Below, one piece after another: positions 3,907-37,534 of a stretch of DNA of 43,668 bases. How positions within the stretch are numbered: position 1 is the first letter of the stretch; the number at the start of each line of letters is the position of its first letter. The position numbers were made by a program, and so were the translations under genes. The notes beneath the pieces are model-generated. The model made no database searches and was not told where the DNA came from. It saw only the letters and a list, made by a program, of their open reading frames with translations. Origin of the DNA: Lachnospiraceae bacterium (GTDB taxonomy: Bacteria > Bacillota > Clostridia > Lachnospirales > Lachnospiraceae); contig JAFZGJ010000099.1 in assembly GCA_017555455.1 (NCBI GenBank), positions 1-43,668 on the forward strand, written 5' to 3'.

Positions 3907-5538
3907 ATGATTAGTGCAAACAATGTAACTTACAGAGTGGGCAAAAAAGCCCTTTTTGAAGAAGTAAATATTAAATTTACCGAAGGTAACTGCTATGGTC
4001 TTATCGGTGCTAACGGTGCAGGTAAATCTACATTTTTAAAGATTTTATCCGGTGCTTTGGAAACTACTAACGGAGAAATCGTAATTACTCCGGGCCAAAG
4101 ACTTTCCGTATTAGAACAGGACCACTTTAAATACGATGCTTATACTGTATTAGATGTAGTAATTATGGGTAACCAGCGTCTTTACGATATTATGAAAGAA
4201 AAAGATGCTATCTATGCAAAAGAAGATTTTACAGAAGAAGACGGAATCCGTGCCAGTGAATTAGAAGGTGAATTTGCAGAAATGGATGGTTGGGAAGCTG
4301 AATCCAACGCCGCTTCTCTTTTAAATGGTTTAGGAATTGATACTGAATACCACTACAGCCTTCTTGCAGACTTAGACGGTAACCAGAAAGTTAAGGTTCT
4401 TCTTGCAAAGGCTTTATTTGGTAATCCTGATATCTTACTTTTGGACGAACCTACCAACCACTTAGACTTAGACGCGATTGCATGGTTAGAAGAATTCTTA
4501 ATTGACTTTGAAAATACCGTTATCGTAGTATCCCATGACCGTTATTTCTTAAATAAAGTATGTACTCATACTGCCGATATCGACTATGGTAAAATCCAGC
4601 TTTATGCAGGTAACTATGACTTCTGGTATGAATCCAGCCAGTTATTAATCAAACAGATGAAAGAAGCCAATAAGAAAAAAGAAGAAAAAATCAAAGAATT
4701 ACAGGAATTCATTTCCCGATTCTCTGCTAACGCTTCCAAATCCAAACAGGCTACTTCCAGAAAACGTGCTTTGGAAAAAATCCAGTTGGATGAAATCCGT
4801 CCTTCCAGCCGTAAATATCCTTACATTGATTTCCGTCCCGAACGTGAAATCGGTAATGAAGTATTAACCGTTGAAGGTCTTACAAAAACTATCAACGGTG
4901 AAAAAGTATTAGACAACATTTCCTTCATCGTAGGACACGATGATAAAATTGCCTTCGTTGGAAGTAACGAATTAGCCAAAACTACTCTCTTTAAAATTTT
5001 AATGGGAGAAATGGAACCGGATGCAGGAACTTATAAATGGGGTGTAACTACATCTCAGGCTTACTTCCCTAAAGATAATACGGAAGAATTTGACAATGAT
5101 TATACCATCGTAGAATGGTTAACAGGCTACTCTCCTGTAAAAGACGTAACTTATGTTCGTGGTTTCCTTGGCCGTATGTTATTTGCAGGTGATGACGGTG
5201 TTAAAAAAGTAAAAGTTCTTTCCGGTGGTGAAAAGGTACGTTGTTTACTTTCTAAAATGATGATTAGCGGTGCAAACTGCCTTATCTTAGACGAACCTAC
5301 CAACCACTTAGATATGGAATCCATTACTGCATTAAATAATGGATTAATTAAGTTCTCCGGTGTAGAACTCTTCTCTTGTCATGACCATCAGTTTGTTCAG
5401 ACAACAGCAAACCGTATTATGGAAATCCTCCCTAACGGTACTATGATTGACAAGATTACAACTTACGACGAATATCTTGCAAGCGACGAAATGGCAAGAA
5501 AACGTACTGTATATACTAACACTGAAGCTGACAATTAA
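3907..5538 (+). CDS. ABC-F family ATPase, YbiT-like
   Basis: This is a soluble twin-ATPase protein of 543 residues with no membrane segments. ABC-F proteins act on ribosomes (translation factors or antibiotic target protection). Domain order: ABC1 (1-235) with Walker A GANGAGKS (34-41) and Walker B ILLLDE (176-181); the charged linker typical of the group (about 245-305, with RFSANASKSKQATSR); ABC2 (318-515) with signature LSGGE (438-442) and Walker B LILDE (459-463). The linker and overall sequence resemble E. coli YbiT. Two motifs are abnormal: the first signature is LDGNQ (156-160) and the second Walker A is GSNELAKT (352-359). Both belong to the same composite nucleotide site. It is probably the first gene of a unit with the PHP and HAD genes. 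A resistance role cannot be judged from sequence. Confidence 0.9.
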   Translation: MISANNVTYRVGKKALFEEVNIKFTEGNCYGLIGANGAGKSTFLKILSGALETTNGEIVITPGQRLSVLEQDHFKYDAYTVLDVVIMGNQRLYDIMKEKDAIYAKEDFTEEDGIRASELEGEFAEMDGWEAESNAASLLNGLGIDTEYHYSLLADLDGNQKVKVLLAKALFGNPDILLLDEPTNHLDLDAIAWLEEFLIDFENTVIVVSHDRYFLNKVCTHTADIDYGKIQLYAGNYDFWYESSQLLIKQMKEANKKKEEKIKELQEFISRFSANASKSKQATSRKRALEKIQLDEIRPSSRKYPYIDFRPEREIGNEVLTVEGLTKTINGEKVLDNISFIVGHDDKIAFVGSNELAKTTLFKILMGEMEPDAGTYKWGVTTSQAYFPKDNTEEFDNDYTIVEWLTGYSPVKDVTYVRGFLGRMLFAGDDGVKKVKVLSGGEKVRCLLSKMMISGANCLILDEPTNHLDMESITALNNGLIKFSGVELFSCHDHQFVQTTANRIMEILPNGTMIDKITTYDEYLASDEMARKRTVYTNTEADN

Positions 5539-5547
5539 GGTTTTGAG

Positions 5548-5696
5548 AAGGGAAAGGTTCTATATATCCCTTGTTCGCTTACTGTTCGTTACATTATTTG
5601 TGATTAACGTACAAAAACTGTAAACAGTTTTGTTCGTTTCTCACAAACAATGTCTCACAGATGCGTACAAGTTGGATATATAGAAACCTTTCCCTT
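5548..5696 (+). repeat. Structured intergenic repeat, copy 1 (candidate RNA)
   Basis: This non-coding element folds as one long interrupted hairpin. AAGGGAAAGGTT (5548-5559) pairs with 5685-5696, and CTATATATCC (5560-5569) with 5674-5683. CTTGT (5570-5574) pairs with 5667-5671, CTGT (5582-5585) with 5657-5660, ACATT (5591-5595) with 5649-5653, and TTGTGA (5598-5603) with 5641-5646. The apical stem is ACAAAA/TTTTGT with CTG/CAG closing a TAAA loop at 5621-5624. The second copy is at 36332-36475 on the minus strand. The arms are nearly identical between copies, whereas the basal and apical stems change with pairing kept. It starts 10 bases after the ABC-F stop and ends 27 bases before the PHP start. 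No other terminator is present there. Confidence 0.8.
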
Positions 5697-5723
5697 ATTT
5701 AAATATTAATGGAGGAAATCATA

Positions 5724-6614
5724 GTGAATATTATAGATTTACATGTGCACTCAACCAAATCTGACGGAACTTTAACTCCTACCGAATTGGTAGAATATGC
5801 TATAGAAAAAGGGCTTTCTGCTTTTGCTTTAACCGACCACGATACCACCGAGGGTATTGATGAAGCTATCGAAGCAGGAAACAGACACAACGAAGCCATA
5901 AAAAACGGAGATACTGAAGGACTTCCCTTGGAAGTAATTCCCGGAATTGAATTTTCTACAGAATATATGGGAAAAGATATTCACATTTTAGGACTTTATA
6001 TTGACTACAACTCTTCTGCTTTTAAGGAAAAAATTCAAGAATTTGTAGATTCCCGAATCCTTAGAAATCAGAAAATGTGTGCCAGCCTGGCATCCGACGG
6101 TATTGATATTACTTATGAAAAATTAATCGAAGAAAATCCCTGTGCGGTAATTACCCGTAGCCATTATGCAAAATACCTTTTAAATCACGGATATACCACA
6201 TCCATGAAGGAAGCCTTTGAACGTTACATCGGTGATCATTGCAAACATTTTATACCTAGGGAAAAGATCACACCCATGCAGGCAGTAGAATTAATCAATG
6301 AAGTTGGTGGTCTTGCTTTTCTGGCCCATCCACCACTTTATCATATGAGCGATCGGGTATTGGAAGGTTTAATTAAAGAATTAAAGGAAGCCGGTCTTGC
6401 AGGTATAGAAGCAGTTTATTGCACTTATACCCAGGGAGAAGAAACTCAGATGCGTAAATTTGCTTCCAAGTACGGTTTATTAATTTCCGGAGGTTCTGAT
6501 TTCCACGGAACCATCAAACCCAAATTAGATTTAGCTGTGGGCTATGGGAAATTATTTATACCGGAATCTATATTATGTGATATTAAATCAGCATTAGCTA
6601 ATAAATTACTATGA
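5724..6614 (+). CDS. PHP-domain metal-dependent phosphoesterase (TrpH/RNase AM-like)
   Basis: This 297-residue PHP-family hydrolase resembles YciV/TrpH, a group known to act on nucleoside 3',5'-bisphosphates and 5' ends of short RNAs. Metal-binding motifs are visible in order: DLHVHSTKSDG near the N-terminus, ALTDHDT, PGIEFS, FLAHPP and GGSDFHG near the C-terminus. An upstream in-frame ATG at 5709 overlaps the GGAGG ribosome site (5711-5715), so the GTG at 5724, 8 bases after that site, is the likely start. It follows the ABC-F gene across the structured repeat and precedes the HAD gene by 40 bases, probably in one transcript. The exact substrate is inferred from the family only. Confidence 0.85.
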   Translation: MNIIDLHVHSTKSDGTLTPTELVEYAIEKGLSAFALTDHDTTEGIDEAIEAGNRHNEAIKNGDTEGLPLEVIPGIEFSTEYMGKDIHILGLYIDYNSSAFKEKIQEFVDSRILRNQKMCASLASDGIDITYEKLIEENPCAVITRSHYAKYLLNHGYTTSMKEAFERYIGDHCKHFIPREKITPMQAVELINEVGGLAFLAHPPLYHMSDRVLEGLIKELKEAGLAGIEAVYCTYTQGEETQMRKFASKYGLLISGGSDFHGTIKPKLDLAVGYGKLFIPESILCDIKSALANKLL

Positions 6615-28053: not shown

Positions 28054-28078
28054 GGGATGTTGCATTTTGCAACATCCC
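28054..28078. terminator. Terminator between convergent aroC and lactonase-like gene
   Basis: GGGATGTTGCA (28054-28064) and TGCAACATCCC (28068-28078) pair perfectly around TTT. T-rich flanks are better on the minus side. Confidence 0.85.
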
Positions 28079-28085
28079 CTATTAT

Positions 28086-36280: not shown

Positions 36281-36331
36281 TTTATTATTACCTCTCAACA
36301 AACAGGAACGGAAAAGTTCTATTATATTATA

Positions 36332-36475
36332 GTTTTTGTTTATACATATCCAACTTGTACACATCTGTGAGACATTGTACGCAAGAAACGGACAATAACA
36401 CTTTATAGTTATTGTCCGTTGATTGAGCACAATGTAACGAGCAGCAAGCGAACAAGGGATATGTATAACAAAAAC
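36332..36475 (-). repeat. Structured intergenic repeat, copy 2 (candidate RNA)
   Basis: This is the reverse-strand partner of the element at 5548-5696. On the minus strand it begins GTTTTTGTTATACATATCC (complement of 36457-36475), which pairs with 36332-36351 with one bulge. The arms match copy 1 nearly base for base (CCCTTGTTCGCTT, TCGTTACATT, AATGTCTCACAGATG, GTACAAGTTGGATAT). ACATTGT (36372-36378) pairs with ACAATGT (36429-36435). The apical stem is a perfect 13 bp (36387-36399 with 36408-36420), different in sequence from copy 1. It lies 33 bases after the ilvC stop and 51 bases before the next start, in the same sense as both genes. An outer GGAACGG/CCGTTCC pair (36305-36311, 36495-36501) may extend it. 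Confidence 0.8.
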
Positions 36476-36508
36476 GCCTTACATAATCTTACTCCCGTTC
36501 CGTCATTA

Positions 36509-37534
<1,026 letters not shown>

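Follow-up and report, generated by a model that had tools for sequence, protein, structure and literature searches.

A covarying hairpin family at predicted transcription terminators of Lachnospiraceae, a candidate mobile element

The window, by which we mean the whole 43,668-nt stretch of Lachnospiraceae DNA that was analyzed, holds two copies of a structured element in which a conserved core lies between arms that pair within each copy and differ wholesale between copies. We favor, at a probability of roughly 0.55, the reading that this is a non-autonomous mobile element which lives in transcription terminators and is moved in trans by a putative enzyme. If its mobility is confirmed, a selfish element can exploit transcription stop signals as safe harbors. 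The first-pass annotation of the window had described a dispersed, covarying element without a named family, a description that was borne out and is extended here to six genera; the element adds to the covarying structured elements a family spread over six genera of one bacterial family and lacking an Rfam entry.

The two window copies and the conserved core

The core of copy 1 occupies positions 5567..5676 of the plus strand (TCCCTTGTTCGC ... GTACAAGTTGGA; 157 bits with model R1 and 80 bits with the held-out model R3) and begins 28 nt after the stop of the gene immediately upstream (3907..5538, plus strand), whose product has two ABC_tran stretches and ABC_tran_Xtn and is presumably an ABC-domain protein of the ABC-F type. 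Its 5' arm (5548..5566, plus) includes GGGAAAGGTT (5550-5559), predicted to be the 5' side of a terminator stem that is found core-less in the related genomes G004 and G005, and its 3' arm, TATATAGAAACCTTTCCC with the T-rich tail TTATTT, extends over 5677..5700 (plus). Copy 2 is on the minus strand, with its core at 36349..36459 (145 bits with R1, 76 bits with the held-out R3), a 5' arm that includes the outer stem GGAACGG at 36460..36506 and a 3' arm that includes CCGTTCC and the T-rich tail TGTTTGTT at 36297..36348; the gene immediately upstream encodes ketol-acid reductoisomerase (36509..37528, minus; KARI_N, KARI_C). Both copies were found where the first-pass annotation had placed them, and the features it had described, namely the basal helices CTATATATCC/GGATATATAG versus ATACATATCC/GGATATGTAT, the CGC/GTG wobble and an apical helix that is swapped yet paired, can all be read in the sequence. 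The interval it had assigned to the element was right in location and too short in extent, as the palindromic arms average about 46 nt per side (mean of 45 copies), from which the second copy spans about 36297-36506. The segments 5548-5700 (plus) and 36297-36506 (minus) are each predicted to fold as a single long hairpin, with energies far below those of shuffled sequences (z of -11.0 and -9.3, respectively; none of 200 shuffles was as good).

Cores from the same genome align end to end and form two subfamilies, with long and short apical parts. Among 46 copies, 92.9% of 1702 cells are paired and two-sided changes are seen in 24 of the 37 pairs, giving a covariation score of 0.361 against 0.118 for shuffled alignments (sd 0.007) and at most 0.112 for slid versions. 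The corresponding values for 21 copies from five genera are 0.444, 0.148 (sd 0.014) and at most 0.091, so that covariation among further copies is strong on both sets, as had been anticipated, while the count of further pair types on the 21 copies was not above control (39 versus 35.2, a value reached by 48 of 500 shuffles). A further model, R2, was not used; it had only 12 pairs because the tips of the copies from G331 were misaligned. In 32 copies from six genera the 5' side TGT.CGC is invariant and every position of the 3' side ATGCGTACA is at least 90% conserved, with a T-T mismatch kept between the two; the short-type tip CGGAC-loop-GTCCG is common to several genera. Cores at unrelated loci are up to 96% alike (0.964 for L001 and L002), and the copies of G001 share core and inner-arm features that make them a genome-specific subtype. 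The arms, in turn, pair with their own partners at a mean score of 22.5 relative to 4.8 with swapped partners (45 copies, 881 swaps), the lowest own-arm score being 13.2, slightly below the 95% level of the swaps (13.6). The 3' arm usually has an additional base close to the core, as read by eye.

Could such covariation have arisen by mutation rather than selection? Hairpin-templated repair (quasi-palindrome correction) would copy changes from arm to arm, and near-perfect palindromic arms that turn over between copies while the cores stay alike are what it would leave behind. The mismatches and bulges of the core are maintained across genera, though, and the excess of G-U over A-C in the arms described below is strand-specific, both of which speak against this explanation, the least probable of those we weighed. 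Dispersed structured elements with paired changes do have precedent in the bcr1 repeats of the Bacillus cereus group, which are about 150 nt long and have a direct target duplication.

Copy number and distribution

The assembly to which the window belongs (G000, 3.26 Mb) contains 26 full copies of the element, whose core is about 110 bases long; the suggestion that there would be many per genome, instead of the window's two copies only, was correct. These are what remains of 35 matches after setting apart three opposite-strand re-matches (L019, L026, L029), one remnant (L030) and five short matches (E 0.04 to 5.5), which are outside the full-copy count. Twelve genomes were searched closely, and in nine of them, representing six genera of one family, a hand count of the rows gave 98 sites (E <=0.01, some partial): 26 each in G000 and G001, 14 in G005, 11 in G331, 10 in G173, four each in G127 and G253, two in G004 and one in G319. 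Three of the seven same-genus genomes searched (G002, G003 and G006) had zero sites. Excluded from the counts, besides the re-matches and the remnant, were L110, a chance pattern match in a Flavobacteriales contig which has no such hairpin and no R3 match, and L097, L100, L101, L104-L108, L111 and L112, which repeat elements of G004 and G005 already counted.

A DNA search was positive in four of 61 genomes, every one within the genus, and R1 run over 397 genomes of the family found seven positive, in six of 334 genera, which is a lower bound because the filters were strict and at most eight candidates were scored per genome. Run with strict filters over 391 genomes drawn from the class, R3 recovered the own genome only and none of the 390 others. 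That R3, which was built on short-type copies from five genera, also recovers the long-type copies of the window and the held-out genera of G319 and G331 supports a single family. The named bearers are the Lachnospiraceae MAGs RGIG3179, RGIG6397 and RGIG7478, from goat, sheep and water-buffalo gut; we equate RGIG7478 with G005 and RGIG6397 with G004, on the grounds of identical flanks, and RGIG3179 with G001, which has its elements in the same places.

Neither the window nor 17 further loci gave a match to any Rfam 15 family at the gathering cut-off, in agreement with the first-pass annotation. A permissive scan of six loci gave ten sub-threshold matches, which we took as chance, the best having an E of only 0.036. 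Phage and plasmid records gave no match at distant DNA sensitivity with three different elements as queries, and no viral-contig stretch had the strict pattern; two that had a looser one were rejected, as the hairpin is absent from them and R1 does not recover them. We found no report of the family in the literature on its core sequence, on terminators, on repeats or on structured RNAs of Lachnospiraceae, mostly in open-access papers, and the papers matching words of the core sequence concern, as far as their listing goes, unrelated organisms only. Repeat-like matches at L059:6255-6380 were likewise set aside; no tRNA is present there, and the stretch reads as a chemotaxis-receptor domain, an assignment we assume from its motif. 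Among individual sites, L221 (G331:C47) has two oppositely oriented copies separated by about 200 bp (1508-1649, plus; 1856-1999, minus), and L210 (G127:C2:18847-19025) is a copy with an extra hairpin of about 50 nt inserted close to the conserved core.

Position after genes and strand signatures

The first-pass annotation had not placed the element at a gene's predicted terminator, and it is there that its position puts it: 60 of 66 distinct elements (L034 and L190, present in both lists, are the same and were counted once) are on the sense strand after a gene, and none is between divergent genes among the resolved pairs. In the genus rows, 38 of 40 have a same-strand gene ending just upstream, 37 of them by a simple ORF rule, which is crude and accepts some short upstream ORFs, and L014 by a hand reading that identified a 92-aa gene on the right strand; the other two, L021 and L048, are antisense at the 3' end of a gene. 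The 27 further loci comprise 23 sense elements, two antisense ones at a 3' end (L199 and L203) and two, L205 and L209, for which the adjacent gene was not resolved. Where orientation is informative, that is between tandem genes, 32 of 37 copies are sense (the p of 2.4e-5 was computed for 32/38, before the correction of L014). The 20 upstream genes that were scanned belong to different Pfam families, except for one gene that matches none at 1e-10.

Several properties of the arms would be expected of a terminator. At least five T in some 8-nt window occur on the 3' side of 37 of 45 copies and on the 5' side of 13, and at least five A occur on the 5' side of 33 of 45, as in bidirectional terminators, so that the outer arms have the makeup of an intrinsic terminator, a paired stem and then a T-run on the transcript strand. 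We predict from these features that the outer arms end transcription of the upstream gene. A simple terminator scan of 5400-5900 found none because it allowed loops of 3-8 nt only; a first measure of the tail, taken from the outermost predicted pair, was uninformative (mean of 4.0 T in 10 nt), and beyond the extended arms T shows no peak (0.31-0.37 throughout) since the T-run is itself paired, with the upstream A-run.

The arms and the core differ in which strand they appear to favor. In fixed arm columns G-U exceeds A-C by 34:5 (genome-column events 15:4, p 0.02), and a structure-blind alignment gave 60:28 for the arms (copy-level permutation p 0.003). Fixed core columns have 9:31, with genome-column events of 9:20 in alignment A1 (p 0.06) and 9:17 in alignment A3 (p 0.17), and the structure-blind alignment gave 15:41; this A-C lean rests largely on two columns, which hold 16 of the 31 A-C cells. 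In all these wobble counts, as in those of T-runs, related copies are not independent. With RNA parameters the bottom strand of the core folds more stably in 41 of the 45 copies from the genus and in 15 of the 17 from other genera, and with DNA parameters in 44 of 45 and 13 of 17, respectively, although these counts amount to few independent observations since all cores share one motif. For the arms, neither strand is favored energetically when RNA parameters are used (25:20, p 0.30), and there is a lean to the bottom strand under DNA parameters (13:32, p 0.02), which lends no support to a sense-strand reading of the arms. The excess of G-U over A-C makes the arms look as if they were selected as sense RNA, and the core leans weakly away from that signature. 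The earlier description of the element as a selected RNA structure is accordingly supported for the arms, with their G-U excess, 3' T-run and sense position after genes, and not for the core, with its A-C lean and a better fold on the opposite strand; one hairpin divides into two strand signatures, of which that of the arms is sense-RNA-like and that of the core is not.

A known hairpin class that resembles the core is attC of integrons, imperfect hairpins with the short conserved boxes GTTRRRY/RYYYAAC, kept bulges, a variable tip and a bottom strand that folds better. The core shares the imperfect hairpin, conserved boxes, kept bulges, variable tip and better-folding bottom strand, but its invariant TGTTCGC/GCGTACA, as read from alignments A1 to A3, do not fit GTTRRRY/RYYYAAC.

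Turnover of sites and the case for mobility

Comparison with sister species revealed a turnover that the first-pass annotation had missed: at 14 of the 26 G000 sites compared with G005, nine are without the core, one has a remnant and four have the core. At the site of copy 1, the core is absent from G004 and G005, where GGGAAAGGTT-loop-AACCTTTCCC is present along with a T-run, such that copy 1 sits in the loop of a terminator-like stem found plain in these two relatives; different plain hairpins occupy the site in G001, G002 and G003, and G006 has almost no intergenic space. The sites of L002, L011 and L016 are plain terminators in both G004 and G005, and that of L003 is one in G004, the stems at filled and empty sites being similar for L002 and different for L011 and L016. 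In G005 the L009 site has no obvious hairpin, the L010 site has a hairpin with a long loop and L012 is a remnant of left arm and core edge only. The L006 element is situated past another terminator-like hairpin, and no hairpin occupies its precise position in relatives. Relatives hold other hairpins at the L015 site; these (L129 in G004, L130 in G005 and L137 in G001) are large and nested, perhaps a second hairpin family.

Among the sites with a core in both species, L005/L054 and L023/L136 are in opposite orientation between convergent genes, and L014/L036 share site and orientation with different arms and cores 70.5% alike. L017/L040 are true orthologs with three pairs flipped on both sides, a case in which a copy has long been inherited vertically while undergoing compensatory change. 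Between the convergent genes of the L005 site, G004 carries about 1.2 kb more sequence, which resembles a coding gene (L086, G004:C56:12300-14200). G000 itself has remnants, L077 and L153; the lone right end in L077, considered as the place of an autonomous partner, turned out to be a deleted hairpin. Some empty sites look like losses and not pre-insertion states, such as those of L002 and L012 in G005, the former being so counted because we read the G005 loop as resembling the inner arm of the filled copy. Terminator turnover can be traced at one site in sister species, as plain terminator, terminator with embedded core and deleted remnant.

The main rival to a mobile element, which we consider unlikely although not far-fetched, is a host-owned 3'-UTR RNA whose core would bind a protein or shape mRNA decay and termination, the family having grown because it was useful. 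Sense orientation (60/66), strong covariation with internal-loop motifs kept across genera, arms that behave as sense RNA (G-U over A-C) and the orthologous L017/L040 with its three flipped pairs are all in keeping with such an RNA, which covers orientation and arm selection but not the patchiness and the diversity of genes: no function is common to the 20 upstream genes, nine of 14 compared sites are empty in G005, and three of seven same-genus genomes lack the element. The core, moreover, has more A-C than G-U (9:31 as G-U to A-C cells), and its other strand gives the better fold. The coming and going of copies suggests a mobile element instead of a fixed regulatory RNA, and alike cores at unrelated loci, genome subtypes, patchiness and reused intergenic sites fit a mobile element as well, while the sense bias and the place fit either targeting of terminators or insertion tolerated only there.

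How might such an element spread? Each core is held in a long palindrome, the outer stem of which is predicted to be the transcription terminator of that gene. New copies would insert at terminators that are already present, or into their loops, with the conserved core hairpin as the feature that the mobilizing enzyme recognizes. Insertion there would be safe, since it preserves the stem and disrupts no gene, and copies may be lost when the hairpin is deleted internally and a plain terminator remains. One specific form of this mechanism, which we hold as doubtful, makes the element a parasite of terminators: the core would work as a bottom-strand single-stranded DNA hairpin, and not as sense RNA, which a putative recombinase recognizes and inserts into terminator loops, the host's stem becoming the ends of the element. 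If that were true, the gene's stop signal would survive insertion, decayed copies would leave plain terminators behind, and the element would reshape the terminators of its hosts.

The element has the attributes by which MITEs are recognized, being short, non-coding and multi-copy with terminal inverted repeats. Several observations weigh against mobility. A target-site duplication is not clear, as the TATATA on both sides of copy 1 is itself self-complementary and the edges of other copies are complementary, not repeated; conservation peaks in the innermost motif and not at the ends, which is unusual for a transposon; a symmetric DNA transposon would not be expected to show the sense bias (32/37 tandem pairs); and there are the vertical persistence of L017/L040, the absence of a hairpin at the L006 place in relatives and the empty sites that look like losses. 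MITEs in general, QMITE2 among them (PMC10969869), are similar in being short, non-coding, intergenic, often 3' of genes and present in many copies with a strong hairpin, whereas our element has no clear target duplication and is most conserved in its interior.

A classical MITE of an IS1182-like insertion sequence, with the outer arms (consensus GGGCTGTTGCAAAAT) as terminal inverted repeats and insertion at terminator hairpins in the manner of IS1272, is a more specific proposal and an improbable one. IS1272 (IS1182 family) targets inverted repeats, among them hairpins that lie downstream of genes, without target duplication (PMC5678879), and GGGCTGTTGCAAAAT-like outer arms are present in many G000 copies and in another genus (G173). 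The ends of our element are its least conserved part, however, the outer arms of several copies are unrelated, GGCTGTTGC stems are found as plain terminators too, as well as at the L011 site in relatives, and the orientation is biased. IS1272 codes for a transposase and replaces the target stem-loop (PMC5678879), whereas copy 1 appears to keep around its core a terminator stem common to filled and empty sites.

Our element is closest in kind to known terminator-like repeats such as SPRITE. SPRITE consists of an 18-bp duplex and, after it, a U-rich tract, with one conserved sequence (PMC3049150), a combination that our element does not have. Similarities to that description are a small, non-coding interspersed repeat with a terminator-like hairpin and T-rich tract, enriched at gene 3' ends, considered parasitic and without a matching insertion sequence; in contrast to it, the paired arms of our element are unconserved and enclose a conserved core of 110 nt in which mismatches are kept, and the family is spread over six genera.

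Stems resembling the outer arms also occur outside the element. While there are no exact short GGCTGTTGCA hairpins in G000, stems like GGCTGTTGCAAAAT, allowing up to two mismatches, are over-represented there (57+59 matches versus 10+3 in the control), and some of the 30 loci read from a search for the GGCTGTTGCA-type stem are, among the matches listed, plain terminators. The idea that this stem is a property of the element alone was dropped, since plain terminators carry it too. In the window, a plain hairpin of the GGCTGTTGCA kind with a T-rich tail and no core, GGGATGTTGCA-AAA-TGCAACATCCC, lies at 28054-28079 on the minus strand. L143, L150, L156, L159 and L160 of G000 have GGCTGTTGCAAAAT-like stems, several of them core-less, and such core-less hairpins are perhaps decayed elements or a favored terminator stem.
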